This document shows, piece after piece, positions 7,603 through 59,687 of a stretch of 64,000 bases of DNA. The stretch is taken from the NCBI GenBank assembly GCA_027475525.1, contig JAMWFC010000009.1:1488001-1552000 (forward strand), written 5' to 3'. The stretch is from Macrolepiota albuminosa. Taxonomy: Eukaryota; Basidiomycota; Agaricomycetes; Agaricales; Agaricaceae. Within the stretch, counting starts at the first letter, position 1. Each line of letters opens with the position of its first letter. Position numbers and translations under genes: made by a program. The notes beneath the pieces are model-generated. The model saw nothing but the letters and a program-made list of their open reading frames with translations, was not told the DNA's origin and did not search any database.

Positions 7603-10136
7603 ATGGTTGGACGAAACTCCTGTGTTCATAATTTCCTTTCAAGTCTTCGTCTGTCAACCCTAATGCGAAAATCTCCTGAACCCCTGCATGCTGCTTTCCA
7701 ATCTGCATTGAATTTCAACCCCAGTGTACCTGACGTACAAGAGAAATCACCTTGCCCCAGATTAACGCACCCTCTCTCATTCTACGACTGCCACCTCGAT
7801 AGACGACTTGCACTAAAAAACGTCAAATCTATTCCATCTTTTCTTTCTGACTTGTCACAATCCGTAGGCATCGTCTTACAGAAGATTGCGAAAGATGGAG
7901 TCAATTTGCCTTCAGTCGACAAGTGTTTTCCAGACCCAGAGAGTTTAGCACTTTTCGTCAGCCCAAGTCCTGCCAAGGATGCTGATGACATTGGTGAAAT
8001 ATATCGGGCCTCGATCTCACCCTTTGCTTGCGAACTTGCATCCATGCTATTACTCCATCCTGCCGCCAGAGAGTGGAGTACAGCTGTCCATATGACCGTC
8101 AGAATCGTCTCTCCACATCGGAAGTACTACGATATGATTGAGGACTACGTACCAGAAATCCTCGACTCGTATGAACCTATTTCTGGTAAAGAATATACTA
8201 TGGTCAGCAAAGCAGCGTGGGCGGTTCTAAGTGATGATGATCGGAGACTTCTTGAAGAGATGAGGAGAAGATTCACACGGATGGCGGTTTGGCAGATGTT
8301 TTTTGCCTGTCGTGAAGCTGAAGATGCGTTGAAAAATCTAGATCGGCTTTTTTCTATGGCAAAGTTTCCTGAGGTCACTCCCTTGACAATCGTTAAGCAA
8401 TGGACACCCATCAATATACCCCTTGCTGCGTCGCCAGACGCTATTAACACTGCATGGGGAACCACTTTATTATCTTGGGTCTCGACATCCCTACCAGAAA
8501 CCAACGCTATTCCTGCACTTCCCACAGGTGGTACGCAATTCCTTCGAAGGAGTCTTCGACTGTTTACTAGAGACAAACTCGAACAGTCCTTGAAGGAAAC
8601 AACAAAGAGATCAAAACAGACGATTTCTCCTTCAACCATCGAATCAAAATTACTTTGGCCCACTGTCACAATTTCCGCTCGGAAACGGGACCTGGCTGCT
8701 ATTGACGAAGACATGGCCACCTCTTTGATCCAACACGTGATGATCAGTCCTAGCTTTGTCTACTGCTATACTAATAATCGCTTGCATGTCTAGGCATGGT
8801 CAAGAGCCGCTGAAAGGGATTCTTCTTTCATTGTTTTTCATTGCGGGACTTTTGAGCGAATCGCGTTCCGACATCGATCCAGTCAAACACTCATCTTGTC
8901 CGACCTCATTGATATCACACATTGCAAGGACCCTGCATATGCTCATATCCATCTAGGGCTTTTGATATCTATTATCGATGACATACGTGATCGAACTCGC
9001 CAACTTATCGCACAGGAAGCCAAGTCAAAACCTGCGAAACGTAAAGGAGTAGCCTTGGTATCTGATAACATCAAGCGTCCGAGGACCAGACTGAGTGTTT
9101 TTCGGGAGGAAGCGCGGAAGCTAGATTATAAAAAACGTCTGAAGGTATGCCCACATCTTTTTTTGAATGTTCTCTGTCTTAAGAAACCCAATTGACAAAG
9201 GCTGTATTTAATGGTATCGCTAACCGTAACCTGGCCTTGCTCCGGATACAGCACGGTCCCTATAATTCACCCGCTCCATCTTCGTTTTTACGTGTCTCAG
9301 ACTCGGACAAGGTTATGTCGCAAGAAAAATATCGACCTCATGAATATTTCCGCATCACTATTACCTCAGAAATAGCTCGCGGCTCAACAGGGGATACGCA
9401 TGCTGCCACGATCGATTTTCTTGATACAAATGAAAAGACTGTATCTTTTCCCGATGCTGTCGTGAAATTTGCCTTCGCTGCTGTTCAGAAGAAGAGGCTG
9501 CGGCATGAATTTGATGTTTATTCCTGCTTAATGTCTGCCAATGCTAGAGGAATTCCACTTGTGTTTGGTCTATTTGAAGACATTGAAACCGAGGCTCTCG
9601 TACTTGTTATGGAGCATGCTGGATTAACCCTTTGGGACTGCAGACTTCCTGACAAGAGTCGACGACGTCAATTCGTGATTTCAGAGTCTGAGAAGTAAGT
9701 ACTAGTCTTGTCTGTTGCTATGGGATTATGAAAACAATGATCCACTTCGCAGATCTGCTTACCTGGATGCTCTGGAGTCTATCCATGAGGCTGGTGTCCG
9801 CCACCGCGATCTGCGGCTAGAAAATCTCACGATCAAAAGCAACGGAGAACCATGCATTATAGACTTCGATCGTGCTGAAATGGCGATCTGCGGCTAGAAA
9901 ATCTCACGATCAAAAGCAACGGAGAACCATGCATTATAGACTTCGATCGTGCTGAAATGGAAGCTGACGAATCATCTTTGAAACTCGAGAAAGAGAAGCT
10001 CCAGAACGTGCTTGATGGACAACATGAATATCGTATTTCCCGTGAGACTACGGAAGAGGATGCAAGCCCTCTTGAGGAATGGGATAACGGAACTGAACGC
10101 TCAAGCAGTTCAAGCATTCAAATTGGCGTATTGTGA
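7603..10136 (+). CDS. FunK1-like fungal protein kinase, frame broken by a 77-bp duplication
   Basis: Tandem paralogue of the upstream gene. A long first exon runs from ATG 7603 (7663 is an alternative) to about 8732 (IQH). It splices to AWSRAAERDSSFIVFHCGTF at about 8794, then KRLK joins AVFNGIANRNLALL near 9199. The kinase domain follows: ITSEIARGSTGDTHAATI (Gly-rich loop region), DAVVKFAF (Lys), ALVLVMEHAG (hinge), an intron at about 9697-9754, HRDLRLENL (catalytic loop) and IIDFDRA (metal-binding Asp). Both catalytic Asp are present. In the sequence as given, 9806-9882 is repeated exactly at 9883-9959. This shifts the frame and stops it at TAG 9895-9897. Ignoring one copy, the frame runs on to TGA 10134-10136. 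The duplication is probably an assembly error (see findings), so I annotate a full gene. Confidence 0.7.
9806..9960 (+). repeat. Exact 77-bp tandem duplication in the kinase catalytic loop
   Basis: 9806-9882 and 9883-9959 are identical and directly adjacent, and the match extends to 78 bases at an offset of 77. It covers codons for the RDLRLENL loop through DFDRAEM. Being 77 bp it breaks the frame. It shares its exact offset with six other duplications in the next 7 kb. Confidence 0.95.
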
Positions 10137-10680
10137 TGAATTCAGAATTTATATTTTTAAATCTTATTTTTCTTTATTTGATTCCTCTACTCGACTTTTC
10201 TTCGATCCTACCTGTTGTTTACATGCTTTCTTTTTTGGGTGGTGTAAGATGGCAGACGCCCTTGATTACATGCTTTCACTACGTACAACTAACATGATTG
10301 AATACCCATTGTTTATCCTGCTTTATCATGCTTTAGTTGGAGCGTTTGAGTGATTTGGTCTATACCGTATTCAGATGTTGTCCATATGTGGCTTTCAAAT
10401 GAGCGAACAGAGCCGGTGATGTGTTTCGGCGCATTATCATCGCTGTAGATGGACGTAAGGCCCCTCAAACCGAAGAAATCAAGGAGTATACACTCAAGGT
10501 AACAACACTGTTACTCATCTGGATTGAGCAGTCCAATCGCAAAACTTCGCAATGTCTGAATTTCTGAGTCTCCATTGTGTCCGGCGCTAAAAATTGCATC
10601 TCCCTTCGGTTCTGAATGAATTATGATATAACATAGGATTTGAAAATGACTAGACGTTTGGAGATAATGGCAAATAAACA
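10137..10680. other. AT-rich spacer downstream of the kinase gene
   Basis: No convincing coding sequence. Probably 3' UTR, then start of the transposon island. Around 10530-10600 a short motif (GCAATGTCTGAAT ... CTCCATTGTGTCCGG) resembles one near 50835-50880. Confidence 0.35.
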
Positions 10681-10689
10681 TTTTTGAAC

Positions 10690-11710
10690 CTTCAGAAGTA
10701 CCAAAGGAGCAGGACAAACTGAATGTGTTCCTCTCGGAGAATTTCAAGTCCAGAAAAATCCACCTCTCAAAGTCACTCATGGCCCCACCAGTGTTCTTCA
10801 TCAAGAAGAAGAATGGCTACTCTTGGATGGTCCAGAACTATTGCATGCTCAATGCAATGACCTTAAGAATTGCTACTCACCTCCCCTCATCTCAAGCTTA
10901 TCAACAACCTCTGAGGTGTGCACTACTCACCAAGTTAAACAACTATTCAAGCTACAACAATATACACCTCCAAAAAGGGGATGAGTAGAAGGCAGTGTTC
11001 TAGACCAACTGCAGGCCGTTCAAACTGCTAGTAATGTTTTTCAGACTCATTAACAGCTCAGCCACCTTCCAAATAGTGATGAATGGCATCTTCTGGGACC
11101 TCATCACTGATAACATAGTGTGTGTATACCTCAACAACATTCTCATCTACACCAAAATGTTGGAGGAGCACTACTGCATCACCTGAATTGTTTTGAAATG
11201 TTTCTGCCAGCACCAACTCTTCCTCAAGCTGAAATGTGAGTTTGAACAGATCTGCATCAAGTACCTTTGTCAAAGTAAATGACAAATGACTACGGAGTGT
11301 TACCTCAATCTCGCATCATACATGATGCATTCATGACGTATGTTTTATCCTTTATTCATTTCACTTTATCTTGTTACATCATGATAAAATTCTACAAAAT
11401 TCTAAATGTCTCATATTTAGGTATAAAATATGTACTCATACCTGAAGTTTGAATTGTCCTTGATTTCGAACTTCAGGTACGTAACTAAACAGCTTACTTA
11501 TTGAATCGTCCTTGATTTTGAACTTCAGATTGTACTATATATGTGAAATATATATATTCTGCATTATGCTGCAACAACCTTGGACTTGTCATCTCCCATG
11601 GAGTGGCAAAAATGGATCCTATAATGGTGGCTGGTGTCTTTCAGTGGCCCAAACTCTGGAATAAAAAGAAAATACAGGCCTTTTCAGGATTCACCAACTT
11701 CTTTCATGAT
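10690..11710 (+). pseudogene. Decayed Ty3/Gypsy reverse-transcriptase fragment
   Basis: Plus-strand remnants of a Gypsy RT: PPVFFIKKKNGYSWMVQNY, ALLTKLNNYSSYNNI, LVMFFRLINSSATFQ and CVYLNNILIYTKMLEEH (YLDD degraded to YLNN), then FEQICIKYL at about 11245-11275. After some 290 bp of unrelated AT-rich sequence the next piece resumes at about 11571: LGLVISHGVAKMDP ... KKKIQAFSGFTNFF. Frames carry several stops, and typical residues are replaced in ways that fit C-to-T decay (Asp to Asn, Arg to stop or Cys). No gag, RNase H or integrase attached. A different family from the intact element at 51 kb. Confidence 0.8.
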
Positions 11711-12375
11711 AGAGTTGATACACTCTGATAGAAGAACAGAAACTCAGAGTGTTTTTGGACACATCTAATAGAGTTTATTTACCTAGTAGAAGAACAGAAA
11801 CTAGGTAAAGTAAGTAACAAGTAATTGCTGTATATGAGTTGAACCTCACCTCAGAGTGTTTTTGGACATGTCTGAGGTAGGCAGTACATAACTATGTGAA
11901 TATATGTAGTGCAGGTAATAACAGGTAATGAAATAAGAGAAGGTGCAGGGTCAAGGACAGAAAATAAAGAGAGTATACTAAAGGGGGAAAGACACACATA
12001 TAACAAGGGTATGTATGGGATTTTTGACCTGGTTTGTTTGAATAGGTCACTGACAGCCATTCCAACATATCAGCAGTTCATTTTTCTCACTATGCATGTC
12101 TACTATTTAACCTCATCAGGAAGAATATTGCCTGGATCTGGGAGAAGCTGGAGCAGCAGGCCAATTGATTGAAGTTGAACATGTCAAATTAGTACTAACA
12201 AGGTCAAATGACATTGTTTATACTTCCCACAAGGTGTTTCCATCTTCTACTGCTGAAAAGTATTTAGAAAACATGAAAATTAAAGTGAGTCAAAAACTGC
12301 CCCAATGATTAAATATTTTGTTTAATTTATTAATAGGTGAGTTCTTGTCCAAATCACATGATCTATACATTATTA
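11711..12375. other. AT-rich repeat-derived spacer
   Basis: Contains two imperfect copies of an AGAAGAACAGAAACT motif and of a CAGAGTGTTTTTGGACA motif (11730-11880), suggesting LTR-like debris. No gene supported. Confidence 0.35.
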
Positions 12376-12778
12376 TCTATATAGAATGGGACAACCGTTT
12401 CGTGGGAATGATATGCTTAGTCAGTTTTGACAGTTTCTGGCTAAGGCTGACAAAGGCTGACCAAGAACCTTCCTTTTAGGGTAACAACATAAGAGTTGGC
12501 TCATTTGAGTATTAAAAAATTCCAAGAAAATCACTAAAAATTCAGGAAAAATTCAGGGACTAATGATACACCGATTTAGATTTTCTTTTGAGATTTATAA
12601 ATGCTTAAATAAGTCTGAAGTTTTCAAGAAAAATTCAATTGGTGTGTTTTTCAGAAGATGTTAGTGAAAATGCTCAAATAATTCCAGGAAAATCAACAGA
12701 AATTCAGGAAAAATTCAAGGGCTACTGATATACTGATTTTTGTTTTTTTGGAGATTTATAAATGCTGAATAAGATGTG

Positions 12779-12930
12779 AAAAATTCAAGAAAAATTCAAT
12801 TTAGCTTATAATAATGCTTTGAGAGTTGTGGATTAAGCATTGAGTTGTGAAATGCAAAAATTCAAGAAAAATTCAATTTAGCTTATAATAATGCTTTGAG
12901 AGTTGTGGATTAAGCATTGAGTTGTGAAAT
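12779..12930 (+). repeat. 77-bp offset tandem duplication (75 bases matched)
   Basis: 12779-12853 matches 12856-12930 exactly at an offset of 77. Inside Helitron-like unit A; member of the 77-bp series. Confidence 0.9.
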
Positions 12931-13133
12931 ACCGAGGCCTTAACCGAACGAAGTGAGGTTGAGGCTGGGAATAAGCACTGAGTTGCGAGATGCGGAGGCC
13001 TTAACCGAACAAAGTGAGGTTGAGGCTGGGAATGAGCATTGAGTTTTCCATACATACTTGGAGCCCTAACCGAACGAAGTGAGGTTAGGGTGGAGGCTTA
13101 GTTGGGGGGGGGTTTGGGGGCGAAGCCCCCAAT

Positions 13134-13172
13134 GAGCTACGAAATTCGTGCCGAAGGCACGAATCGTAGCTC
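13134..13172 (+). other. Long terminal hairpin of Helitron-like unit A
   Basis: Arms starting GAGCTACGA and ending TCGTAGCTC form a stem of about 17 bp with a 2-base bulge and a GAA loop, one base from the unit's 3' end. A second hairpin, GGGGGC-GAA-GCCCCC, lies just upstream (13116-13130). Rolling-circle transposons use a 3' hairpin as transposition terminator, and this fits that role. Degenerate equivalents sit at the ends of unit B (about 15733-15753) and unit C (about 16510-16548). Confidence 0.65.
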
Positions 13173-13959
13173 GTCTATAATATATGGGACAACCGTTTCA
13201 TGGGAACTATCTGATTAGTAAGGCTGACCAAGGCTGACCAAGAACCTTCCTTTTAGGGTAATATCATAAGAGTTTGCGTACTTGGAGTCTCAATTTTGTA
13301 CTTAGAGTATAAAAAATAAAATATGTATATTGTAAACTTCAATATTAATATAAATACCATATTTGGACATTTTTGGATTGTGTCCGGATGAGAAGAGGCC
13401 AAACGCGATTTAGTGGACACCAGTTTTCACGCCTTGCGTGTTCTTTGACCACACATGACCAAACAAACTCGAAATTCACTGTTGTAGTGAGAAGACACTA
13501 CAAACAAAGTAAGTGTCAATTTGTTGATTGATTGATCAAATGTTTACAAACGTTGAATTCAGCTTATTTGACACTACAAACAAAGTTACAACAAAGTAAG
13601 TATTGGCTTATTTATTATTGATCAATTAATAAACATTCAATTCAGCTACAAACAATTCCGAAATCGTTACAACAAAGTAAGTATTGGTTTGTTTATTATT
13701 GATCAATGCTAATAGACAGTGAATTCAGCTTATTAGTGAAAGCTTGACAACATTTAGCTATTGATATACTAGATATATCATCATGTAAGTAACTTTCAAA
13801 GAGTTTGAGCTATTAAAATGCTTAAAAAATCAATAATCTAGGCAATCTTCAACTACTCATTCTGAACCCAGGACTCCTGAAGGTCAAAGACAGCAGGCTA
13901 GGATTGAAAGCAGGCTTCAACAGTTGCAAATGACTGATCCTGATGATTGTCGTGCACAT

Positions 13960-14115
13960 AGAAGTAGAAGATCTACTTCAGTGGTTATACCACTTGATTT
14001 TGGAACTGAGGGTATGGGATCTGGGAGTATACAAACAGAAGTAGAAGATCTACTTCAGTGGTTATACCACTTGATTTTGGAACTGAGGGTATGGGATCTG
14101 GGAGTATACAAACAG
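13960..14115 (+). repeat. 77-bp offset tandem duplication (79 bases matched)
   Basis: 13960-14038 matches 14037-14115 at an offset of 77 bases. It duplicates the start of the repeat-bearing ORF. Member of the 77-bp series. Confidence 0.93.
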
Positions 14116-14275
14116 GGGAAATACAAACAGGGGGAATACAAACAGGGGGAATACAAACTGAGGGAATGCAAACTGGAGGAATACAAAATGGAGGTATACA
14201 AACTGGAGGAATACAAACTGGGGGAATACAAACTGGGGGTATACAAACTGGGGGAATGCAAACTGGGGGAAGAGG
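14108..14275 (+). repeat. 15-bp coding minisatellite (IQTGG)
   Basis: About eleven tandem 15-bp units of the form ATACAAACTGGGGGA, varying at a few positions. The period preserves the reading frame. Probably a true repeat, since the units are diverged. Confidence 0.85.
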
Positions 14276-14585
14276 GTCTGGAGATATGCCTATTGCTCAG
14301 GATCCATTTGCTATTGTCATTCCTCAAACTCATTTGCCTGAAGGATGGGATGCACCTTTACAGAATCCCATACCTAGAATGGTGCCACCTCTACCTGTTT
14401 CTACATCCAGAAGAAACAATAGGCCTAGAATGGTACCACTTCTACCTGCTCTACCTCTTCCTATACATAGAAGAGACAACCTGCCTACTATTGCTCCACT
14501 TTCTGTGGACATTCCTGAAACTGTTCTGCCTGAAGGATGGGATACTCCTTTACAGAATCCTATGCCTATAGTGCCACCCCTACCT

Positions 14586-15122
14586 GCAGTTTGCCTTTGG
14601 CTAAACTGGCTTTGAAGATTGGAGTTCCTGTCATGCTTCTCAGGAATCTGGACACAACCAAAGGACTTTGCAATGGAACAAGAATGATTATCACTCACAT
14701 CAGCACTAGAGTTCTCAGATGTCGTATTATCAGTGGAGATGCCAAGTTTGCAGGTTCAACTGTTTTGATTCCAAGGATCAATCTAGATGCCTCTGAAGAG
14801 GATTTGCCCATACCATTATGCAGGAGACAGTTTCCAATTCGATTGGCCTTTGCTATGACTATCAACAAGTCTCAAGGGCAATCAGTCAAGCATGTTGGAT
14901 TGGACCTTTTCCAATTCGATTGGCCTTTGCTATGACTATCAACAAGTCTCAAGGGCAATCAGTCAAGCATGTTGGATTGGACCTTTGATCATCGGTTTTT
15001 ACACATGGCCAACTCTATGTTGCACTTTCTCGATGCACATCAGGAGATCGTATCAAGGTGATTTTGTCAGAAGAAAATACATCAAGAGCGACTGCAAATA
15101 TTGTGTATCAAGAAGTTCTTAA
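14586..15122 (+). pseudogene. Pif1/Helitron helicase C-terminal fragment
   Basis: Reads [49 protein letters not shown] (helicase motif region V/VI) and, after a local duplication, [20 protein letters not shown] ... [11 protein letters not shown] and a stop at about 15121. This is the classic end of the Helitron RepHel/Pif1-like helicase. The 77-bp repeat between 14831 and 14986 makes an artificial second copy of the INKSQGQS stretch and a frame break. Without it, the C-terminus reads through. Walker A/B and the Rep domain are absent. Confidence 0.88.
14831..14986 (+). repeat. 77-bp offset tandem duplication (79 bases matched)
   Basis: 14831-14909 matches 14908-14986 at an offset of 77 inside the helicase C-terminus, breaking its frame. 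Member of the 77-bp series. Confidence 0.95.
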
Positions 15123-15568
15123 TGGTTTACAAATGTAAGTGTGATTGTTAATTATATACTTATTACTAACTTTATATTTTAGCATCTAACTTGATACTGT
15201 ACATATAACTTGGAATTGTAGCATTATTTTTTGGGTTTACAAATGTGAGTATGATTGTTAATTACCTACTTATTACTAACTTTTATATTTTAGCATCTAA
15301 CTTGATATTTGTTGATACTGTACTAATAGAATATATATAACTTGGAATTGTAACATCATTTCTTGATAAATGTGAACTTTCTATTCTTTAACAACATATG
15401 CTTGAACCAGTAAGACATAATGAAAGTAAGTCATGATAGAAGTTGAGTTATGAATATACATATTTGGAACCCCTAACCGAACAAAGTGAGGTTGGGGTGA
15501 AGGCTGAGTTACTTATATACATATTTAGAGCCCTAACCGAACAAAGTGAGGTTGGGGTGGAGGCTAAG

Positions 15569-15720
15569 TTACTTATACATACTTGGAGCCCTAACCGAAC
15601 GAAGTGAGGTTAGGGTGGAGGCTTAGTTGGGGGGGGTTTGGGGGCTTACTTATACATACTTGGAGCCCTAACCGAACGAAGTGAGGTTAGGGTGGAGGCT
15701 TAGTTGGGGGGGGTTTGGGG
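15569..15720 (+). repeat. 77-bp offset tandem duplication (75 bases matched)
   Basis: 15569-15643 matches 15646-15720 at an offset of 77 in the 3' part of Helitron-like unit B. Member of the 77-bp series. Confidence 0.9.
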
Positions 15721-15923
15721 ACGAAGCCCCCAACGAGCTACGAATCGTAGCTCGTCTATAGTATATGCGACAACTTTTGTGGGAATTTGATGTGATGACT
15801 AAAAATTTGTCAGCTGAGTCATTGATGACTAAGGCTGACAAATAGTTGTCTTTTTGGTCTGTTTTGAATAAATGTTGGTAGATAATGCTTAAAAAATTCA
15901 GATAAAATCACTAAAAAATTAGA

Positions 15924-16079
15924 AAAAATTCAAGGCTTACTGATACACTGAGTTTAGTTTTTCTGAGATTTATAAATCCTTAATGAAATCTGAAAATTTC
16001 AAAAATTCAAGGCTTACTGATACACTGAGTTTAGTTTTTCTGAGATTTATAAATCCTTAATGAAATCTGAAAATTTCAA
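15924..16079 (+). repeat. 77-bp offset tandem duplication (79 bases matched)
   Basis: 15924-16002 matches 16001-16079 at an offset of 77 in unit C. Member of the 77-bp series. Confidence 0.93.
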
Positions 16080-16279
16080 GAAAAATTCAATTGCTCTGTT
16101 TTTTAGGAGATGTTAGTGGAAAATGCTCAAATAATTCCAGGAAAATTACCAGAAAATGAGGAAAAATTCAAATGCTACTAATATACTGATTTTTAGTTTT
16201 TTAAAGATTTATAAATGCTGAATAAAATCCGAAAAATTCAATTTAGTTTACAATAATGCTTTGAGAGTTGTGGAAAGAG

Positions 16280-16434
16280 GACTGAGTTGTGAAATGCGGA
16301 GGCCTTAACCGAACGAAGTGAGGTTGAGGCCGGGAATAAGCACTGAGTTGTGAAATGACTGAGTTGTGAAATGCGGAGGCCTTAACCGAACGAAGTGAGG
16401 TTGAGGCCGGGAATAAGCACTGAGTTGTGAAATG
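16280..16434 (+). repeat. 77-bp offset tandem duplication (78 bases matched)
   Basis: 16280-16357 matches 16357-16434 at an offset of 77. It creates the odd doubling ...GTGAAATGACTGAGTTGTG. Member of the 77-bp series. Confidence 0.95.
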
Positions 16435-16549
16435 CCAAGGCCTTAACCGAACGAAGTGAGGTTAGGGTGGAGGCTTAGTTGGGGGGGGTTTGGGGGCAAA
16501 GCCCCCAACGAGCTACAAAATTTGTGCCGAAGGCATGAATTGTAGCTCG

Positions 16550-17552
16550 TAAAGCTAGGATGCAGTTGTATGTCATGTGATTTTCTACAATTTTTTGCTT
16601 AGGTAATTGTTGTGCACCATGTGAATCTTTCCAAAAAGGCCAAATATTGAGGCAGTTTTTTGAGGCAGTGTAAGTAGATGCTGTGAATTAAACTAAATAA
16701 TAAAAAGTCTGTCTGCCTAAGTGCATAGAGGGCACAAAACAATGTCAAGTGCCAAGGTGAAATGCCAAGCTGTCAGTCATAGGGAATTGCCATCATTCCA
16801 ACTCATAAGTGCTGCTATTGGTTAGTTGTACTATTTGCCAATAGACTGATGGCATCTGCCACTTATCATTTCAGCTGCTGTTGGCACTATCACTGATTGG
16901 ATTCATTACTTGCCATATGTAGCCATTGGAAATGGCCTAAAATAGATAAATGGTGGATGCCAGATTCAGGTTGTATGTGCCAAGGGTTTCTAGAGCCAAT
17001 GCTGAGTTGCTATGGCCTGCCATTGGTGTGCCTAGCCTGTGTAAAGTCTATCATCTCCCCCCAACTGAAAAATTGACTGTCCTCAGTCACAAACATAGTT
17101 ACCATTATTATTTTGTGACCGGTGGCCTGTGTGTTTGCTAAAATCTGCTTATAGTCCTAATGCATGAGTTGGGACTTCACTTCATTTTTCTGAAAACCCC
17201 TGGCATTCTCATTAGAAAAATGTCCTTCTGCATTCCAACTCTGTACCCCATCTCCACTTGTGAGGCTCAAGACACAGCCCATGTGTATATTGCCATGGCA
17301 AACAATTTTTATCAAGTGCATTAAAGATGTAGATGCAGAGGCACCAAAAAATTTAATTGTTGATGTGATGTGCCTGTTTGAGTGATGATTGGAGGTCTGG
17401 ATGCTTGGCATGAGTTGAAACTATAAAATAGAAGTGCAGGAGTAGTGCCGCTAGTGATATGTAGAGCACATGGGTGCTGAGTAGCTGGCACCATTTTCTC
17501 ATTTCATGAGTGTCTGTTTTCTCTTGCCACATTGCTAACTGATTGTGCCCCT
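16550..17552. other. CpG-poor region without recognisable gene
   Basis: Short frames only (for example 16950-17141 plus and 17157-17411 minus), none with a recognisable domain. Probably decayed sequence of unknown origin. Confidence 0.3.
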
Positions 17553-17890
17553 AGGCTTCGCTTCCCATCCCAACAATTGAAGATGAGTTAGAAGACACCT
17601 TGTCTGGTACCTTGCCAATGATAGTAAGTGTGCTTGTGACTGAGTGAGTATCTCTGACTTTGTCTGGACTTAGCTGTGGTCTGACTTGTTCCCTCACAAC
17701 AAACAGGAGGTCTTGGCACCCCTGGCAAGGCTACAGTTGCAGCAGGAGGAGGAGGAAATATTTGCCACTGCTGCTGAGTACATGCTAGCTCTGATCAAGG
17801 CCTAGGAGAAAAAGGAGCTGGCAAAAAAAGAAGAGGTTGCCAAGAGACAAGATTCTGTAATTGGTGGCAATAGTGTAGTGGAGTCATGAC
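17553..17890 (+). pseudogene. Small spliced gene fragment, unknown
   Basis: Two acidic/Gln-rich exons appear joined by a clean GTAAGT...ACAG intron: LPIPTIEDELEDTLSGTLPM, then EVLAPLARLQLQQEEEEIFA, an in-frame TAG, a Lys/Glu-rich stretch and a stop just before the LTR at 17891. The stop follows an Ala-rich helix. Not recognised; it may be the decayed 3' end of a host or transposon gene. Confidence 0.35.
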
Positions 17891-18115
17891 TGATACATAT
17901 ATGGTCACATCTGACTACAGTAGGTCCTTAATTACTGACCTGCTCTGACTCATTAGTTATGATTATCAAATTACCTGCAGTAACACCATAGTATATAAAG
18001 ACCTAGTTGATTGTATATTAGGCAGCTTTACAATATTAGGACTTACACCAGTTCTATAGTGAGGCTCTAACTCTATGTGACAAAACACTACTCTATTGGA
18101 TAGACTTCCATTACA
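17891..18115 (+). repeat. Decayed 5' LTR related to the intact 51-60 kb element
   Basis: 225 bp, almost exactly the 226 bp of the intact LTR. It starts TGATACATATATGGTCAC (intact: TGTAACGACCGTGACCAC), has a TATATAA box in the middle and ends in ACA. It is followed at once by TATTTTGAACTTCAAAAG, matching the intact element's post-LTR sequence TATTTTGAACCTCTCAAAAG. This anchors the start of the plus-strand remnant. Confidence 0.75.
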
Positions 18116-21100
18116 TATTTTGAACTTCAAAAGTCTTAACTACTCTATAAACCACCAACTCTTGCACTATGGGCATATCCTAGTCTGATTAACTGAATTC
18201 ATCCTAGCCATGAGTCTTCTGTGTCAGTATGTCTACTGATAGCAGTTCTTGCGGATATAACTTTTAATGCCTCCAACCTGATATTGCTATGCCAACAAAG
18301 GTTGCAGTACACAGGTTTGGAGAGATATCCAAGGAATCTGGTCAAGTTGTTTCACTGAATATCTCAGATTCAGAAAATTGAGGTAAATCTAGTCCTGACA
18401 AGGTGGCCACCAGCTCTCTATTGTCCAAGCCTAAGGATGATGAGGCCAATTCCCCTTTGCAAGAAAGGGAGAAACCCCACCTGGAAGGTGAAGGCCAATC
18501 AGCTAATGAAACAAGTCCAGGAGACTCGGAGGGTCAGGACAATGATGACAAACCAGACATCAGTTATGGCGATACTTTAGGAAAGAATGATGCCACAGAA
18601 AATAGCTAGAATAAGGATCAGAGAAGCAGGAATGGCCACTTACTAACACAGAAACAAGCTGACACAGTAGAACTAGCTCATTGTCAGTTAACAGCAGAGC
18701 AGAGTAAATTAGTTTCTGACCAAAACAGAGCTTTGAATATCCATCCTGGGATGAACCCACCCCCAGGAGCAGGTTCTTCAAACAGAAAAGAGAAAAAAGT
18801 AGATCCCCAAGAATGGGAACAACTCAATATGGAGAATGAGTTAGAATTGGATCCTGAGGTTCAGAAACAATTATTAAATAAGTACAAGACCCAACAGCAC
18901 CAAAACAAGATTGACTCTTTGGATGAGGACACAAATTCTAACTATGAACCAGATGCAGAGAAGTCCAGTAACAATGGCCTGGATGGGAAATCTGATTCTG
19001 GGACTGAGAAGAGATCTTTGAAAAGGAAACAGATAGCTGAGCTAGAATCACAGCTTAAATAGTTGAAAAAAGAGCTGAGAAAAGAGAAAGAAAGAAAAGT
19101 CAGTAGATGCTTGGATTGTTGACCCTCAGAAGCCCTATTCAACAAACTGGATGATCTGATCAGGAGAGTGACAACCCATTGGTCAGAATTTAGAAAAAAA
19201 AAATCTAATAAGAATGCTGAGAAGGGAGACCCCAGCATGTACATTGGAGCAAACAGTGCATTGGGCCATGCCTTTCAAAGAATCCAGGAGGATAGAGACT
19301 TGGATTCCAAGTCTGACTCATCTTATGAGTATAGCAGCAATAAGTATGAGCCATGTTCTTTGTTTAGAAAGGAACAGACCCTGCAGAAAATGAATAATAG
19401 GAGTCCCCAGTATCATTATAAAGAAAGAAAGGAATTCTATCAGACTCTCATTAACCCCCAGAGAAATATAACAGAGAGCCTGACCTTGGGCTATTTCAAC
19501 AGTGTATGGCTCAGAGTGCCTTATACTTAAAATTTGGCTATGTGCCTCAGGACTGTCACATTTTAACCATCTTTGGCTTCTTGAAAGGGCAAGCTTGGAC
19601 CTATTACTCATGAGTGGCATCACGAGCTCCTGAGGAATGGTCCTTGAATCATTTTTTGTCAGGTTGTTTAATGAATGCTTTCCTCTGAACTTCCATAATA
19701 AACAACAAGAAGCTCTTAAGAACTACACCCAAGGAAAGCTTACCATATGTGATTATTCTGCCAGATTGGAGGAATTGTTCACTGTGGTGAGACATGTCAG
19801 TAACAGAGAAAAGGTGGTCAAACTATTCAACAGATTCAGAAAAGGGGTTCAGAAGCGTTTATACTTGATGGAATTGAATTCTGAGACCTCTGAATGGGAT
19901 AAAGTAATAGAAAAGGCCACTTATGTAGAATGGGCAGATTCTCTAGACTGAGATGATAAAAGCACTTGACAAGGTGAAAGCTCCAACAGAAAAGGGGATA
20001 GTGCTCCTAGTATAAAGACTGGTAATCAACAAGGATTCTCTGGCAATCATAAAGATAAGGGAGCCCAACATCATCCGAAGAAAGAAGGCTCGAGGTCAAA
20101 CTCCTTTGGACAGCATCAGTTCTCATCCAGGAGTAGTGGATCACACAATAAAGATAAGGCTGCCTGTAATTCTAACAGTAACCATGTTCAAAATAAAAAA
20201 AACAAGTGCAAACTTACTAAGGAAGAGGAAGCTGAGTACTGGACAGCAAACAAGTGCTTCAGCTGTGGAGGAGTGGGGCACTTTAGTCATAACTGTCCTC
20301 AAGGCAAAACTACTAAATCAGGATCCTCTAAACCACTGAGGATGAAATCCTTTAGTATTCATGTACCTACTGAAAAGTCTTTGTAGGACATTGAACTGGT
20401 CAATACAACAGAAAGAATTCAAGTGTCACTGGCATCATTTGACCTCCTACCTTTGAACGAGAATGAATCTGACAAAGAAAGTGAGTCAGGAATGGAGGAA
20501 ACTGATAACAGTCTTCTGGACTTACAAACTGCATCTGAATTGGAATACAAGAAACTTCTGTTGTGATGCATGGTATCTGATTCTGGAGAAGAGGAGGAGG
20601 AAATAAGTTTGGCCCCTTTCCAAGAATTTGATAAGGCCTACTCTTTCGAAGTACCAATGGCAGAGGAAAAATTATACCAGCTATAGATAGAGGAGGCCTG
20701 CTAAGGCAAGCCATCTCAATTGGGAAAAGCTGAGGCTTATAAGTTGGAGTATATGCTGGAATCTATACAGCCATATCCAGAGGATCTGGCAAACATGTTG
20801 CAATACCAGGAACAGAGATTCTTCTCTTATGGAATTGTAATGGATGACTTGTGTCTTTACAATCATATATGAGGGAGTGACCTATGTAATCATCTCAAAA
20901 GTGTTGGTGATATGACAAGACTTTGAAATAGGAAGATGATATGCCAATTGGTGTAGCCACAAGGCTGACTCTCTCATTCTCCCAATTCTCAGTTTGGCCA
21001 AACACTCTGACATGATGTATGGGCCTGAAACACCAAGCAGGTGTTAGAGCTTAGGGCACCTTATATAAGTAATGAAGAGCTTTAAAATAGAATAGTGGGG

Positions 21101-51647: not shown

Positions 51648-54600
51648 TTATGCGACGGCTTCAAAGAACGCGGAGTCGATGGTCATTTCCTCGAGAGCAG
51701 CGAGAGGGTCGACAGTGGGGGATGCGGGGGATGTCTTGCCGGTACGCTTCTTCTTGTGATCAGTGAAGAATGGGGGTAAGTCGAACCCGTCGGGTCTAGC
51801 ATCCTCCATACGACGTTTTTTGAACTCCTTTTCCCTGCGGCGCGTCTCTGATCTGGCCTGGTTACGGACCGCCTCACGGTGAGGGCGGAGCAGGGCATTC
51901 TTCAAGCTAGCCCAGGCGTAAGCGTCGATGTCGCCTTTATCGTCTAGTATGCCGAACGCACGTAGCTCCGCGTAGCGAGGGTCGAGGTTGGGGAAGGTGA
52001 TGACGGAGCGCGGGATGGGAAAGTTGTCGTAGTTCCAATCTCCGGTGGCGGCGTCGCGGGTGATAAATTCGCAGGGGTTGTCTCCCTTGGAGGCGTTATA
52101 CGCAATGGCAAAGGATTCGTAGCCGGCAGGCTCGGAGGTGGCTGCCGTGACTTGTCTACGACGTACTTCATTGTCGTAATCGAGGAATTTTAATAACTGA
52201 GCCGGGTGAATAATGATGCCGGGGTCGACGGAGGTAAGTTGTACGAAACCATCGGGGCGCTTGGCGAGGCAGGGATGGGGAGTATAGTGATTTTTAGGAC
52301 GATGAGACATGTGGGCGGCAGGTGGTCGAAGTTGGGAAGTAGCTGGCTCTGACAACTGGCTGGGGTGCTGAGGGGGTTGTTGGGTTGGAAGAGAATGGGG
52401 GGTATTTATGTGTTCGGGATGGATGGACCCTAGAAAAACTTGAGGGTCGTCAGTTGGAGGTTTTCCCGTCCCTTCCGGAAGCTCGTGAATTAACTCGACA
52501 TTGAGGGCTTCCAGGTACGGGGAGAGGATATCCAATTCCCGGACTTGATCATATTGTAACCAGGTCCTGTCCCCAGCACGCCATAACACTTCAAAAATTG
52601 CATCGGTCTTTGACCCTGCGTGGCTCACGATCTTATCGGCGGACCACTCATTATCTTGATCTGGTTCGATTTCAGATATTATTTGGGAGTATAGTCTTCC
52701 CGGAAATCTCCTATCGTCGTTAGGGCGATGTATCCGTAGTAAGGAGGCATGAAATGAATTGTGAATGCCTCTCTGTCTCATGTGAGCAGGCAATTGTACT
52801 CTAAAGGAATGGTTGCCAAAGTCCTTTAGAAGTAAATAAGGACCCACAAATTTGGGGATCAGCTTACGTGCTAAGCCTTTAGGGAACGTCATGTTTTCAG
52901 TGGACACGTATACGAAATCACCTTCCTTGAAGGGGACTGGGATTCGCTTTCGGTTGGCGTCTCTTGTCTGTTTTACACGAGCGGCCAATATACTGTCATG
53001 GGCCGCTAGTATTGCGGACCTCAAACGTTGCGCGAATACTCTAACGCCGGGATACTCGTCCCTTCGTGCAGCATTCCAGACCATCGTCCTGGGCATTCTT
53101 CCGTAGTTGAGGAAGAAGGGGGAATACCCTGTGCTTTCGGAGCGGGCACTATTAATTGCGAATTCTATCGCAGGTAATTTAGATACCCAGTCCTTTTGGT
53201 TTGGACTAACACATTGTCTGATCATTTGAGTTACGGTGCGGTTAGCACGTTCAGTTGCTCCATCCGTTTCAGGGTGGTACGCACTCGACATCTTTAGTTG
53301 CGTGCCAATCAACTCATGCAAGTGAGACCAAAATAAACTAGTGAAATAGGAGTCGCGGTCGCTAACTATGGCTTTCGGAAGCCCATGTAACTTGTAGATT
53401 TCAGCAAAGACTAGTTCTGCAACGTTCCTAGCGGTGTAACTGGTCCTGCTGGGAACTAAGTGGATCATAGCCGTCAAGTGGTCTATTATAACCGTCAGCG
53501 AGTTATACGTCGCATCTCGGTCCTTGGATTCAGGTAGCGGCCCTACGAAATCTATTCCAATGACTTCCCAAGGCTGAGTTGGGACTGGTAGCGGGTTTAA
53601 CATACCATATGGTTTGTGATTCGATGGTTTGCTTCTTGCGCAGACAACGCATGATTCACAGAATAGGTGTACGTCGTTACTCATATTTTTCCACCAAACG
53701 TTATCTCTTAAGTAAGTAAGCGTCTTTCTTGCTCCAAGGTGGGCTAACATGGTATGTGCTTCAGATATTACTATCTCAAGGATACTTCGGCCATTGACCA
53801 TGATCCTTGGGATGCATAACACTTTTTTTCCGTTGCTATTCAGATATAATAATCCGTTCTCGGTATATTCGAAGTTCTTATGTTCTCTAGGCTTACTCAC
53901 TATAATTGATAGTGTCGAATCATCGTTGTATTTTCCCCTTATGGTTTCTAGTAGATCGATCGGCTCGCGCCCTCCTGCCATCAGCTCAGTTAATGTTACT
54001 GGGCTGAGCCTTTCCATTGTTTGTTCCAGCTGCTGGGATCGCTTCGCAATTTCATGCTCGTGTTCCTGTTCTAGATTCAGGGTCTCTAGATTATTCGTTA
54101 TACTTGACAATTTGTCTTGTCTCTGTTTTCGGGCAGGAATTCGGATGGTGAGCTTTCTGTGTCCGTCACCCTCGCCCTCCTTTCGTTGCTGAGGGCCTTT
54201 TAGCACGAAATTCTTAGTCATTCGAGCTGCAAACTCCTTAGAAGTTTCCGCTCTACCAGTCTCAGCTGGGGGGACCACCTTTCGTTGGTAAGCTCTTTTC
54301 TGTTTTGGCCCTGGTGCCTTATCCGATCGATGATACCTCCCATTGATCTCAGGAATGCTATTCTCTGCCTCAGTTGCGCGTTCCGCATCCTTGCCTGAGT
54401 TTATACTCTCATCTGATAGGGACGCGCCCTCGCCCTCCACTCCGACCAACACTGGCATCGAAATGAGGTGCGTTTCCAGCAAGTCATTACTTATTATGTC
54501 ATGGTAGGTGTATTCTCCGCGAGCCCGCACCGTGCCTGGCTCGTCGTAAGAGTATAGTCGAGATAGTGAGTCCGATAAAATATTTTCTACTCCGGGGACG

Positions 54601-57600
54601 TATACCACATTGAAATCAAACCCAGATATCTTCTCAAGCCATCTGGCCTGTCGTCCTGACAGGTTCCTCTGGTTCAGCAGATGTACCAACCCTTTGTGGT
54701 CGGTATACCATGTGAACTTGGTACCTTGCAGGATGTCTCGGTAACGTAGCATCGTCTCTACTCCAGCTAACATTTCTATCTCATGTACTGGGTAGTTTTG
54801 CTGAGCTGAGTTGAGCTTTGCGGAGTAAAAGGCTGCAACCTTAGCCTTCTGCCAATCTTTTCCTTGACTGATGACTCCTGCAATGCCGGTTCCGCACCCA
54901 TCAGTAATAACGTTTATTGGTTGAGCGTTTTCTCCATATTCAAGGGGTTTTCGGTGATGGTCCTTACAGATCATCGCCAAGCGCTTGATGTCCTCAAACG
55001 CACGTTGATGCGTATATTCCCATCGAAATGGAACGGCGTCACTGGTGAGTCCATGCAATATTCCCATTGGTATTCTGACCCTGTCGATGTCATCGGCGAG
55101 GTATCCCGCGGCTCCTAAAAACCCCCGTAGTAAGTCACGATTCGTGGGTGTTTTCCATCGCGAGAGCGCATCCACCTTGTCTGGATCCATTCGGATCCCA
55201 TTATCGTCAACGATGCGACCTAAAACCTTCATCTCCGGGCACAAAAACTGGAGTTTGTCTTTACCCAGGTAGAGTTTCTCTTTTCTGAGTATGTCGATTA
55301 TGATTTTAACATGCTCAATATGTTCTTTGAGACTTTGAGAATAGATGATGATATCATCTAAATATACGTCCATGAAGCGTCCAATGTGCGCAGAAAATAT
55401 ATAATTCATTAATGCCTGATAAGTGGCCGGAGCGTTACAGTCTCCTTGTTGTACTACATTACTAACCATGTTTCCGTCTGGGGTAGTTACTGCGGTGCGT
55501 TCAACATGTTCTGGTATCACGCGAATTTGCTCGTAAGCGTCCTTTCCATCTAAAATGGAGCGGTATTTACCTCGGGCCATTCTACGCAGGATGCCATCAA
55601 TGTCTGGTAGCGGCGAGGACCTCTTTACGGTATTGGAGTTTCGCGCCCTGAGATCGAATACAGTGCGGAGCCTGGGAGGTTCTCCTGCCTTCGAAGGCTT
55701 GGGAATTAGCATCATGGGAACTGTATTTCCACGGCTGGTGATCTTCCACCTTCCATTCTTGATGTATGCGTCCCGTTTCTCGGTCCACTGGTCCCTCATA
55801 GCCTCGGGACAGCGGGACGGTCGCCATGGGTATATCCTGTTGGGATCAATCAGATCAATTGTATGATTGATAGCCCGAAGTGGCGGTAAAGGTGTGTCAC
55901 TTGCCGATTTGCATATGGATTCCGCATACCGTCGCAGTTCCTCTCTTACACTCTCCAGATCCTGCTGGTACAACTCCATTGACCTCGATGCAAGCTGTGC
56001 CACGCCGGACCCCTCTAAGGGTAGGGAAGCGTTTGAGCCGATCATCACTCGAGTGGGATTGATGCCAAAGGTTACGCGGTGTTGAAAAAGAAAGGGGGTG
56101 CCGAGGATGAGATCGTATCCAGACAGATTGATGACGTCGAAGTAGCGTTGTTCGGAAATTGATTGGTACTGAAAGCGGGCTGTAGCCCCAAAGTTTATCC
56201 GGGAGCGGGAACCTTGCACGGCCAGTTGAACCGGTAATGGGGAGGTAAGTTCCTTCTTTGGAATGCCGAGCTGCTGGGTTAACGTACTGGACATAAAGTC
56301 TCCCAAGGACCCTGAGTCAATCAGGGCACGAGCTGGATGTCCATTAATTTGGACGACTACGACCAGAGGCTTTGGGATTAGCCTAGACGGGTCCCTTGCA
56401 CAGGCCGCATTGCGTTGTACAGATGGGTAAGTACCCATAGGTATCTGTTGGCCATTTAATTCAACCATGCAGAGGCGGCCATCTTTGGCTTCGATTTTCA
56501 GCTGCCCGGCGGTGGACAGCCAAGTTTTTATCAAATCTATGTCGGAACCTTCCTTCTCCACGTTTGGAGGTTGGGGGGCCTGCTCATCAAATAAGCAGGC
56601 AACGTCATATTGAGGATCGCAAGGCAAGGCATGTGCCTCCGCGCCCAACTTCTGGAACTTCCTTGTAATCTGCTTTCGGTACCACTGAACAATATCGAAT
56701 TTCTCATTCTTAATTAGTCGAGTGCTTAGTTGGGAACGGAAACCCAAGTGGCGATCATAGGCTAGGTAAGTTCCTTCATCGGAAATCACCTCAAACCGAT
56801 GATACTTATGAGTATATTTATCATCATCATATGGGTAAGGGGCTCCGTTTTCAAGCGCACGTTTCGCATTCCATGCGAAAACGTCCACAATCAGACAGGT
56901 CTGATAAAATGTCCGGTTAGTGTATGGGGCGCCTGCCCGCATACAGCGAATTTTCGCATACCAGTCGCCTATTTCGAAGTGCCGTTGTTCAACTTTGGAT
57001 CGGTTAACCACCTCAAATTCGTCGAAAACCCTGTCATGGACGAGTATTTCATTGTGGGAAGCCGTCGAAGCCACAAATCGCCTTCCTCTGAACTGAAGAA
57101 CATTGACAGGATCGCCAGGGTAAGGTTGCATGCTTTCGAGCATTTCTTCCAACTTATTGCAGGCTGCGTTTCCTAAACTCTTACGCTTAGAATCAACGTC
57201 AAGCATGACGAGTTTCTCTTCAGCTGATTCGACTGGCATCCAGTACGTCTCGTAAAACTCAGCTGGTGGCGCGAGTAGGGTTTCGTCACCATAGATATTT
57301 ATCTCGGTTTCTGTAAGCACGGAAGTAATTCCTTTATCATCCCAGCCTGAGTCTGAATCCGTTACTGACTGAAGGTCCGGGATGGTATCTCCATCGCTAT
57401 CATATTCTCGTTCAAGGGTGCTGGAAAAATGCATCATTCCAATAGAGAGTTCAGTCGTCTCTCCCAGACTGTCGATACGCCTTTGTTCAGTTTGGTTTAG
57501 ATCCACTTGGATCCCAAATGCACTTATTCCCGGCGGTTTGCCACCGTTCGACTTCGCCTGTCCTTTAGTTGGGCAGTTTCGAGCGAAGTGTCCTTCCTGA

Positions 57601-59687
57601 CCACAGCGGAAACATTTGTTTGCTGCACGGTATTCCTCCTTCTCTTCCTTACTCAGAAGAGTCTTCTGCTGCCCCGCAGATTGTTTTGCATCCGTTTTTT
57701 TACTTCCATGGGGCTTCCATTTATTACTATTGGACCCACTCGCCTCATTGTAGTTGGACGACGCCCCGGGGACATTGTTTGTCTTTTTTCCATACCCTGA
57801 TTTGAAGTTTCGTGCTCGACGCGACGAATGGGAAGACTTTCCCTCCTTGCCCTGTCCCTCATGCATCCCGGGAGCTTGGGAGCTTTGGGAGTGGCGTGAT
57901 TGATTGCCTGAACGCTGGTTTACAGCTGAGTCACGGTAATCTATATTGTCTGCTAACTCTTGGTATTCAGCTTCGCGGACAATCTCCTTCCAGGAGCTAT
58001 ACTCAGGATTCAGGTGAGCGCGCAATAACGCTTTTCGAAGAGACGATCTTAGTCCGTTGAAGAGTTTCACAACACGAGCTCGTTGGCTATCGGCGCCTAC
58101 TATGGTGAATAGTTCATCAAGGTCTGCCACATATTCTCTAACGGACTTCTGTCCTTGATTCAGGCTATTTAGCCTTTCCCTCTGCTGACTTCGGAAATCG
58201 ATGGGGAAGCAGTAGTTGAAGAGCTCAATGAAAAACTTTCTCGTCGACCATTTCTCAGGTTCGAACGCCACACGCCGGGTGTAAAAAGTGTAAGCTTTTC
58301 CCGTTAAGAACTCAGATAATACTATGACCTGACGTCTCTTTTCGACATATCCGTACTTAACATAGGCTGTTCCATGGGTTAAGAATCGGTGGAAGGCACG
58401 TACATCCACCCTGCCATCATACTTCTCGGGCGGAGTGGGTTTTATAGTTGAGCGATGCGTTGATTTTCGTTTTGATCTACGAGCACGACGACGTCCCCGT
58501 GGATGGGATGATGAATCCGAACTCGAGCCGGAGGTAGTGGAGTCAGACTCGTCATCTGAGCTCTCATATCCTGAGCTGGAGTCCGAGTCTGATCCATCCG
58601 TGGCGGAAGAATCGGGTGATTCATTACCCGCGTCAGATCCCCTTGGTCCCTGACGCTTTTCGAGTCGTTTAAATGCTTGTCCGAGGGCGCTCTCACCGGT
58701 GATTTGCGTTATTGGCTCAGTGGCCAAATGCTTACTGGGTTTCGGTTTATCACGGTTATCAGTACGTTTATACTTGCGTCTATTCTTCGAGCCTTCTGCT
58801 ACCTTTTGGATTAGGGCAGCCATCTCTCCCGAGATAGGCTCAGATCCAGTACGTTCCTTACGCTTCTGGTGAGAGGTTTCCCTCTTCTGACGGAGTCTCT
58901 TGATCTCGCGTTCTAGTTTCCTTTTATTACGTAGGTAGTCCAACACGTCTTTACGAGAAACTTCATATTTTTCCGCTACATCAGTGGTTTCCCCTTCCTG
59001 GGCAGCTTCGCCGCCGTCGATCATCTCAGGCTCGACGTCTTGGGTGTTGTGCTCAAGTTCGGTTGTGGGTGACTGGTGTTCACGGTTGAGTCTCTCGTTG
59101 TACCTTGTGAGTAACTCCTTCTGTGTCTGGAGATTGATTTCGATCTCATTGAGATCGATGTCTCCCCAGTTCCGGGGGTCCACCCCCTTCCCCTTGTCGG
59201 AGGGTTCCCCAATATCATCTTGAGTCTGGGTATCGTTGGATGTCACTCTATCCATCCTTCTATCGATGCGTTCTCGTTCTGCCTCAGTCAGATGGCTCCT
59301 TGCCTTGGCTAAAGTCTCTTCCATCTCGCGACTTCGATCGTCGCGGGATTGATTATTATTCTGGTCGTTAAACTTTACAGTGTCGTCTTGACTATCTATG
59401 GTATGTAACCCATCCTGCTCGTTATCAGACGGGGAACTAGTTTCACTAAATTCCTCTAGGCCATTTCCCCCCAAGGGTTGGGCTTCCTCACTGGCCTTGG
59501 GCTCAGCGGCATCCACATCAATTTCAGTGGGCATCGCGGGGTCGTCACCGCTCGCGGCATCAAGTATATGGTCTGTTTTCAGCGTCCCAAAGCGCGGTAA
59601 AGGTCCCGTGTTACGTACTGCAGTAGGGCTGAGTCGGCGGACAGGTCCTCCTGTTTTTACGGTTCGACGGGGATATCTAGTAGACAT
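51648..59687 (-). CDS. Gag-Pol polyprotein of the intact Ty3/Gypsy element
   Basis: First ATG in frame is at 59687 (MSTRYPRRTVKTGG); the frame upstream opens with GTG. Gag has a long charged coiled part, a Ser/Asp-rich stretch, the capsid-like region (FFIELFNYCFPIDF) and zinc knuckle CFRCGQEGHFARNC near residue 691. Protease: ALIDSGSLGDF near 1117. RT: SILDGKDAYEQI near 1375 and FMDVYLDDIIIYS near 1437, with both Asp present. RNase H: VITDGCGTG near 1591, HEIEMLAGVE, WYTDHKGL near 1660, SDSLSRLY near 1705. Integrase: HLG...CESCVVCARSK zinc site near 1974-2016, then Asp in IGIDFVGP, Asp in VSDRDSYF, Glu in DGATERANR (DDE set complete), GPY-type module near 2274. Chromodomain-like segment near 2346-2384 (SADKIVSHAGSKTDAIFEVL). 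About 290 further C-terminal residues are unassigned. No frameshift separates gag and pol. Confidence 0.95.
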   Translation of the reverse strand: MSTRYPRRTVKTGGPVRRLSPTAVRNTGPLPRFGTLKTDHILDAASGDDPAMPTEIDVDAAEPKASEEAQPLGGNGLEEFSETSSPSDNEQDGLHTIDSQDDTVKFNDQNNNQSRDDRSREMEETLAKARSHLTEAERERIDRRMDRVTSNDTQTQDDIGEPSDKGKGVDPRNWGDIDLNEIEINLQTQKELLTRYNERLNREHQSPTTELEHNTQDVEPEMIDGGEAAQEGETTDVAEKYEVSRKDVLDYLRNKRKLEREIKRLRQKRETSHQKRKERTGSEPISGEMAALIQKVAEGSKNRRKYKRTDNRDKPKPSKHLATEPITQITGESALGQAFKRLEKRQGPRGSDAGNESPDSSATDGSDSDSSSGYESSDDESDSTTSGSSSDSSSHPRGRRRARRSKRKSTHRSTIKPTPPEKYDGRVDVRAFHRFLTHGTAYVKYGYVEKRRQVIVLSEFLTGKAYTFYTRRVAFEPEKWSTRKFFIELFNYCFPIDFRSQQRERLNSLNQGQKSVREYVADLDELFTIVGADSQRARVVKLFNGLRSSLRKALLRAHLNPEYSSWKEIVREAEYQELADNIDYRDSAVNQRSGNQSRHSQSSQAPGMHEGQGKEGKSSHSSRRARNFKSGYGKKTNNVPGASSNYNEASGSNSNKWKPHGSKKTDAKQSAGQQKTLLSKEEKEEYRAANKCFRCGQEGHFARNCPTKGQAKSNGGKPPGISAFGIQVDLNQTEQRRIDSLGETTELSIGMMHFSSTLEREYDSDGDTIPDLQSVTDSDSGWDDKGITSVLTETEINIYGDETLLAPPAEFYETYWMPVESAEEKLVMLDVDSKRKSLGNAACNKLEEMLESMQPYPGDPVNVLQFRGRRFVASTASHNEILVHDRVFDEFEVVNRSKVEQRHFEIGDWYAKIRCMRAGAPYTNRTFYQTCLIVDVFAWNAKRALENGAPYPYDDDKYTHKYHRFEVISDEGTYLAYDRHLGFRSQLSTRLIKNEKFDIVQWYRKQITRKFQKLGAEAHALPCDPQYDVACLFDEQAPQPPNVEKEGSDIDLIKTWLSTAGQLKIEAKDGRLCMVELNGQQIPMGTYPSVQRNAACARDPSRLIPKPLVVVVQINGHPARALIDSGSLGDFMSSTLTQQLGIPKKELTSPLPVQLAVQGSRSRINFGATARFQYQSISEQRYFDVINLSGYDLILGTPFLFQHRVTFGINPTRVMIGSNASLPLEGSGVAQLASRSMELYQQDLESVREELRRYAESICKSASDTPLPPLRAINHTIDLIDPNRIYPWRPSRCPEAMRDQWTEKRDAYIKNGRWKITSRGNTVPMMLIPKPSKAGEPPRLRTVFDLRARNSNTVKRSSPLPDIDGILRRMARGKYRSILDGKDAYEQIRVIPEHVERTAVTTPDGNMVSNVVQQGDCNAPATYQALMNYIFSAHIGRFMDVYLDDIIIYSQSLKEHIEHVKIIIDILRKEKLYLGKDKLQFLCPEMKVLGRIVDDNGIRMDPDKVDALSRWKTPTNRDLLRGFLGAAGYLADDIDRVRIPMGILHGLTSDAVPFRWEYTHQRAFEDIKRLAMICKDHHRKPLEYGENAQPINVITDGCGTGIAGVISQGKDWQKAKVAAFYSAKLNSAQQNYPVHEIEMLAGVETMLRYRDILQGTKFTWYTDHKGLVHLLNQRNLSGRQARWLEKISGFDFNVVYVPGVENILSDSLSRLYSYDEPGTVRARGEYTYHDIISNDLLETHLISMPVLVGVEGEGASLSDESINSGKDAERATEAENSIPEINGRYHRSDKAPGPKQKRAYQRKVVPPAETGRAETSKEFAARMTKNFVLKGPQQRKEGEGDGHRKLTIRIPARKQRQDKLSSITNNLETLNLEQEHEHEIAKRSQQLEQTMERLSPVTLTELMAGGREPIDLLETIRGKYNDDSTLSIIVSKPREHKNFEYTENGLLYLNSNGKKVLCIPRIMVNGRSILEIVISEAHTMLAHLGARKTLTYLRDNVWWKNMSNDVHLFCESCVVCARSKPSNHKPYGMLNPLPVPTQPWEVIGIDFVGPLPESKDRDATYNSLTVIIDHLTAMIHLVPSRTSYTARNVAELVFAEIYKLHGLPKAIVSDRDSYFTSLFWSHLHELIGTQLKMSSAYHPETDGATERANRTVTQMIRQCVSPNQKDWVSKLPAIEFAINSARSESTGYSPFFLNYGRMPRTMVWNAARRDEYPGVRVFAQRLRSAILAAHDSILAARVKQTRDANRKRIPVPFKEGDFVYVSTENMTFPKGLARKLIPKFVGPYLLLKDFGNHSFRVQLPAHMRQRGIHNSFHASLLRIHRPNDDRRFPGRLYSQIISEIEPDQDNEWSADKIVSHAGSKTDAIFEVLWRAGDRTWLQYDQVRELDILSPYLEALNVELIHELPEGTGKPPTDDPQVFLGSIHPEHINTPHSLPTQQPPQHPSQLSEPATSQLRPPAAHMSHRPKNHYTPHPCLAKRPDGFVQLTSVDPGIIIHPAQLLKFLDYDNEVRRRQVTAATSEPAGYESFAIAYNASKGDNPCEFITRDAATGDWNYDNFPIPRSVITFPNLDPRYAELRAFGILDDKGDIDAYAWASLKNALLRPHREAVRNQARSETRRREKEFKKRRMEDARPDGFDLPPFFTDHKKKRTGKTSPASPTVDPLAALEEMTIDSAFFEAVA

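Follow-up and report, generated by a model that had tools for sequence, protein, structure and literature searches.

The 64,000-nucleotide stretch analysed here (the window; C122:1488001-1552000, GenBank contig JAMWFC010000009.1) comes from an assembly of Macrolepiota albuminosa, GCA_027475525.1, which comprises 100.1 Mb in 129 contigs. It contains a protein-kinase-like exon, a Helitron-related element with a Pif1-type helicase frame, and, lying within or near these, seven 77-base units that are each written twice in succession (Table 1). A preliminary description of the window had reported exact direct repeats of 75-79 bases at these seven positions, with the second copy always 77 bases after the first. 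On recomputation, the seven start positions and the 77-base offset were all recovered exactly, and five of the pairs are indeed exact; the pairs at 12779 and 15569 differ by one base. In both of these, the run of 75 bases is part of a full 77-base unit, copy 2 has A for G at unit position 76, and the copies agree again at position 77. Every site in the window is therefore a 77-base unit with no more than one mismatch. The two copies are directly adjacent at 7/7 sites, and Tandem Repeats Finder counts 2.0 copies per site. There is no N in the window, and the sites are spread unevenly, with all seven falling within 6.6 kb and none in the remaining 57 kb.

Table 1. Positions of the doubled 77-base units (2 x 77) in the window and the length of the uninterrupted exact match at each.
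Feature	Positions	Strand	Exact run (bases)
Doubled unit, protein-kinase-like exon	9806..9959	.	78
Doubled unit, one mismatch (G to A, position 76 of copy 2)	12779..12932	.	75
Doubled unit, open frame of the Helitron-related element, frame shifts	13960..14113	.	79
Doubled unit, Pif1-type helicase frame	14831..14984	.	79
Doubled unit, one mismatch (G to A, position 76 of copy 2)	15569..15722	.	75
Doubled unit	15924..16077	.	79
Doubled unit, edge of a 61-base minisatellite family	16280..16433	.	78

The genes that had been named around these sites (a kinase, a Helitron, and a helicase) were confirmed to different degrees. The helicase is supported directly by a Pif1_2B match (E 3.4e-17) in the open reading frame (ORF) 14534-14935. 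The kinase label holds only through an undoubled paralogue, L003, whose exon matches Pkinase with an E-value of 3e-7 and a bit score of 30.5, marginally short of the 31.7 required; no Pfam family was matched by the two kinase-like pieces of the window that were tested. The Helitron label likewise holds only by relation, since it derives from related loci elsewhere that carry Helitron_like_N, and in the window copy the helicase piece alone was confirmed. Because 77 is not a multiple of 3, doubling of a unit shifts the reading frame. Around 13960, the ORFs 13837-14571 and 14010-14615 overlap and are shifted relative to each other, and the helicase ORF 14534-14935 terminates inside copy 2 of the pair at 14831.

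The offsets at which the sequence matches itself were counted in 234 kb, consisting of the window and 17 stretches of 10 kb from the same genome. The 170 kb outside the window constitute a non-random sample: eight stretches lie beside the window on C122, six near the kinase-like paralogues on C110, two elsewhere on C110, and one on C1. Exact self-matches of at least 40 bases at offsets of 20-1000 were scored after removal of low-complexity runs. Offset 77 accounts for 34 of the 38 matches found, and thus the same offset recurs across unrelated sequence contexts. The remaining four occur once each at offsets 136, 345, 775, and 852; those at 775 and 852 are both in the window, have offsets that are themselves 77 apart, and involve the doubled unit at 15569. 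With low-complexity sequence filtered, the window has no exact run longer than 29 bases at any other offset between 20 and 299. A laxer search, in which whole units had to be 90% alike, yielded a few short-period arrays, with periods of 30, 45, and 61 in the window and of 21, 24, 27, 31, 50, and 136 elsewhere.

The preliminary description had proposed that the repeats are an assembly artefact and had predicted that offset 77 would stand out sharply elsewhere in the assembly as well. This prediction was borne out: the 170 kb beyond the window yielded 27 further pairs with this offset. These pairs are located on C1, C110, and C122 at densities of 0 to 6 per 10 kb, and 5/17 stretches are without any. 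Exact pairs are present on 10 contigs in all: C1, C110, and C122, together with C11, C47, C65, C72, C73, C95, and C126, the last seven having been reached through loci from sequence searches.

The lengths of the matches were compared with a simple model, in which an exact overlap of 77 bases is extended by chance with a probability of 1/4 at each end. Thirty of the 34 pairs are exact, and the other four carry a single mismatch. Among the 30 exact pairs, lengths of 77, 78, 79, 80, and 81 were observed 16, 8, 4, 1, and 1 times, compared with expectations of 16.9, 8.4, 3.2, 1.1, and 0.3 (chi-square in three classes, p 0.80). A wider set of 43 exact pairs from 271 kb of non-overlapping retrieved loci, which includes the 30, gave 25, 11, 4, 1, and 1 pairs for the same lengths and one of 83 (fit p 0.93). 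A third copy was found nowhere among the 43 exact sites, whose longest run is 83 bases.

Given that the region contains a true 61-base array, a 15-base array, and a Helitron-related element, it is conceivable that the pairs represent a minisatellite or the target-site duplications of a transposon. We judge this to be extremely improbable, as the seven sites differ in sequence yet all share one length, and each consists of 2.0 copies that follow one another without a gap. A minisatellite, which should have more than two copies in numbers that vary between loci, was ruled out by the 2.0 copies at 7/7 sites, and target-site duplication was ruled out because the copies are adjacent at 7/7 sites with no inserted element between them.

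A contig in a de Bruijn graph ends where the k-mer path forks, that is, at a k-mer with more than one continuation. If the doubled units mark such ends, the same unit is expected elsewhere, in a repeat copy or an allele, with a different base directly before or after it. We looked for such forks among units in the retrieved loci, ignoring the artificial neighbours created by the doubling itself and leaving out eight overlapping loci (L001-L004, L025, L027, L035, and L036). For 11/43 exact sites, the unit is present in another retrieved locus, and at 9 of these 11 a paralogue has the same 77 bases and a different base exactly at the edge. In comparison, forks were present at 688/25308, 1324/25364, and 1923/25420 ordinary positions having a paralogue when one, two, or three phases were allowed (2.7-7.6%), and at 2.5-13% when the background was matched by locus and copy number (10 units having one). 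The 11 sites represent 8 distinct units, 6 of which have a fork (binomial p 4.6e-6 versus 7.6%, with the units taken as independent, although two of the eight overlap each other and most of the tested units are from loci of one repeat family).

When the whole assembly was searched, a fork was seen at 7/7 window sites. The quantified background is that of the retrieved-locus test; the units at 12779, 14831, 15569, 15924, and 16280 have 4 to 230 genome matches, and in large families forks are probably commoner than among the retrieved loci. At 9806, the base following the unit is G in the window and A in L002. The three other places in the genome with the 12779 unit differ among themselves on both flanks, and all three read G at position 76. 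The exact 13960 unit is found at 13 loci, where the preceding base is T in 13/13 and the following base is A in 8 and T in 5. For 14831, in phase +1, which its 79-base match allows, the following base is T in the window and in some copies and C in most, among the matches listed of 125. The base preceding the 15569 unit is G in the window and in most of 79 genome matches and A in others, for example on C1 and C85; position 76 is G in the other places listed, except C114:5928567. At 15924, the preceding base is A in the window and in most of 25 matches; C21 and C58:259649 have G there, the unit being otherwise exact. Finally, for 16280 in phase +1, the preceding base is G in the window and C in the 61-base arrays, among the matches listed of 230. 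In both pairs with a mismatch, 12779 and 15569, copy 1 keeps the G of the family at position 76 and the G-to-A difference of copy 2 adjoins the right flank; read-based correction of a false junction could be its source.

We are highly confident that the doubled units are an assembly artefact, namely the untrimmed overlap of a de Bruijn graph with k=77. The preliminary description had arrived at the same reading, which is now supported by the spike in the offsets, a test that it had suggested, and by two that it had not, the run lengths and the forks at the unit edges. According to this explanation, the sequence would have been built from graph pieces in which a 77-base vertex is common to adjacent edges. 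In many cases, two such pieces would have been written consecutively with the shared 77 bases left in both, turning the true x-K-y into x-K-K-y, and the junctions would lie at path forks, directly adjacent to a base at which repeat copies or alleles disagree. The vertex length would then equal the k chosen in a short-read or hybrid assembly, one step of which presumably failed to trim, and later base correction (polishing) probably changed single bases in some copies. A usual final k of SPAdes is 77. The relevant passages of two papers state that edges in de Bruijn graphs have length -k, i.e., that neighbours overlap by k (PMC7850483), and that SPAdes leaves overlapping sequence at contig ends, which Unicycler removes (PMC5481147). 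The situation considered here resembles those passages in the fixed overlap of k between neighbours and in having overlaps at contig ends, of the kind that a later step takes out; it differs in that the overlaps described there are removed or accounted for, whereas here they have apparently been left in an assembly of megabase scale, at ~145 per Mb of sample. A search of open-licence papers found no description of such an untrimmed-overlap fault or of this assembly. False (haplotypic) duplications are another case in which sequence that is present once appears twice, because two graph paths are both written; these are long, varied in length, and involve two alleles, whereas the pairs here have one fixed short length and are nearly always identical.

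The sequence fits both the plain concatenation of pieces and a graph path written out untrimmed, and it does not point to any one software or step. In one version of the artefact, the overlap error was made later, by a gap filler, a scaffolder, or an assembly merge, when short-read contigs overlapping by k were inserted back to back into a long-read assembly. The combination of megabase contigs and an N-free window with a short-k signature suggests a hybrid pipeline of this kind, and the uneven spread of sites (within the window, seven in 6.6 kb against none in 57 kb; elsewhere, 0-6 per 10 kb) is consistent with it. However, the same unevenness is also expected if forks cluster in repeats, and the sequence does not separate a later error from a primary assembler that wrote untrimmed paths. 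We consider the chance of a later step to be slightly below even.

Whether doubled or single, copies of the same unit coexist in the assembly. Of the 13 loci with the 13960 unit, 3 are doubled (the window and loci on C47 and C65) and 10 are single. For the kinase-like exon at 9806, the doubling is present at the corresponding position of L002 (~93% identity to the window), while L003 (95.5%) and L004 (81%) are single. A shared vertex that was trimmed on some paths and left untrimmed on others explains this mixture; independent real duplications at the same base are not expected. The idea that an artefact cannot recur at two paralogous loci was dropped, as L002 shares the doubling at 9806, and C47 and C65 that at 13960. 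It can recur at paralogues because the same graph vertex is the junction for every path that runs through it.

The sharing of a pair with a paralogue at 93% identity might instead be taken as a sign that the tandem duplications are real and owe their fixed length to a cellular process copying exactly 77 bases at a time, e.g., through fill-in after staggered nicks made at a constant spacing. The pairs are, after all, present in the assembly, and the four with one mismatch can be read as ageing. Nevertheless, we regard such a process as very improbable: it is not expected to stop at the base where paralogues diverge (9/11 versus 2.7-7.6%), the run lengths scatter no more widely than chance extension predicts, and units lie within open frames and break them. 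Natural tandem duplication was rejected, as the lengths do not vary and the breakpoints are not independent of the differences between paralogues. It is just as hard to credit that some of the pairs are real and reflect a genome-wide duplication of exactly 77 bases, preferentially beside positions at which repeat copies disagree, as might arise by mismatch-triggered paired nicking and fill-in.

Several observations weigh against an untrimmed overlap of k=77. Because pure concatenation would be exact, the four offset-77 pairs with a mismatch, each 77 bases long, count against it, as do a pair with offset 78 at L032 and a one-base length difference at L023. The deviations at L032 and L023 look like small corrections made after joining. 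The contigs are large (up to 5.3 Mb among those met), and thus more than short reads were probably used. In the pooled test, 2/11 units, L026:1332 and L028:1267, have no fork among the retrieved paralogues, and 32/43 exact sites, which have no retrieved paralogue, fall outside the test. The preliminary description had placed the repeats mostly at repeat borders, and this can be refined to points at which the k-mer path branches; for two units lying in unique DNA, L018:979 and L006:9525, the whole assembly contains no other copy within 3 mismatches. If the untrimmed overlap is the right explanation, the fork at these two sites would stem from an allele or copy that is absent from the assembly, and doubled sites may mark variants that are unseen in it.

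The doubled units are almost certainly not biology and not a real feature of this genome; they constitute a warning about this assembly and not a discovery. The sample contains 145 sites per Mb, which, if a non-random sample is typical, extrapolates to ~14,500 sites assembly-wide (a Poisson range of 10,100 to 20,300 from the count alone) and, on the same assumption, to ~1.1 Mb of false sequence. Each exonic site shifts the frame, and gene models, pseudogene calls, and the ages assigned to transposons are affected. A count of exact tandem pairs by offset, searched for a single spike, would reveal the same fault in other assemblies.

Other features of the window and its relatives were recorded along the way. 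Three relatives of the kinase-like gene (L002/L007, L003/L005, and L004/L008), with identities of 81-95%, lie within ~130 kb at C110:3.16-3.29 Mb. In the Helitron-related element, the N-terminal coding part is joined to the helicase part at window position 14587/14588. Among 40 copies scored of 318 candidates, 39 other copies with the helicase part start exactly at 14588 and none crosses the join; the two parts are 0.9 kb apart in the window and 5.4 kb apart in C47. This join may be private to the window copy, and reflects either a deletion within the element or a chimera created by the assembler. Helitron_like_N (PF14214) has at least 150 scored matches genome-wide, of 393 candidates, and many have identical scores, which may mean recent spread.

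The 61-base minisatellite at 12907-13045 of the window has ~2.3 copies and shares sequence with the 16280 unit. A search with that unit gave regular long runs of matches 61 bases apart on C20, C26, C45, C65, and C110. Farther along the window, at 51648-59783 on the minus strand, there is a single open frame of 2711 residues, which we take to resemble a Ty3-type retrotransposon polyprotein. Apart from it, a piece at 19634-20386 carries a zinc knuckle and resembles gag, with the gag match below its cut-off.

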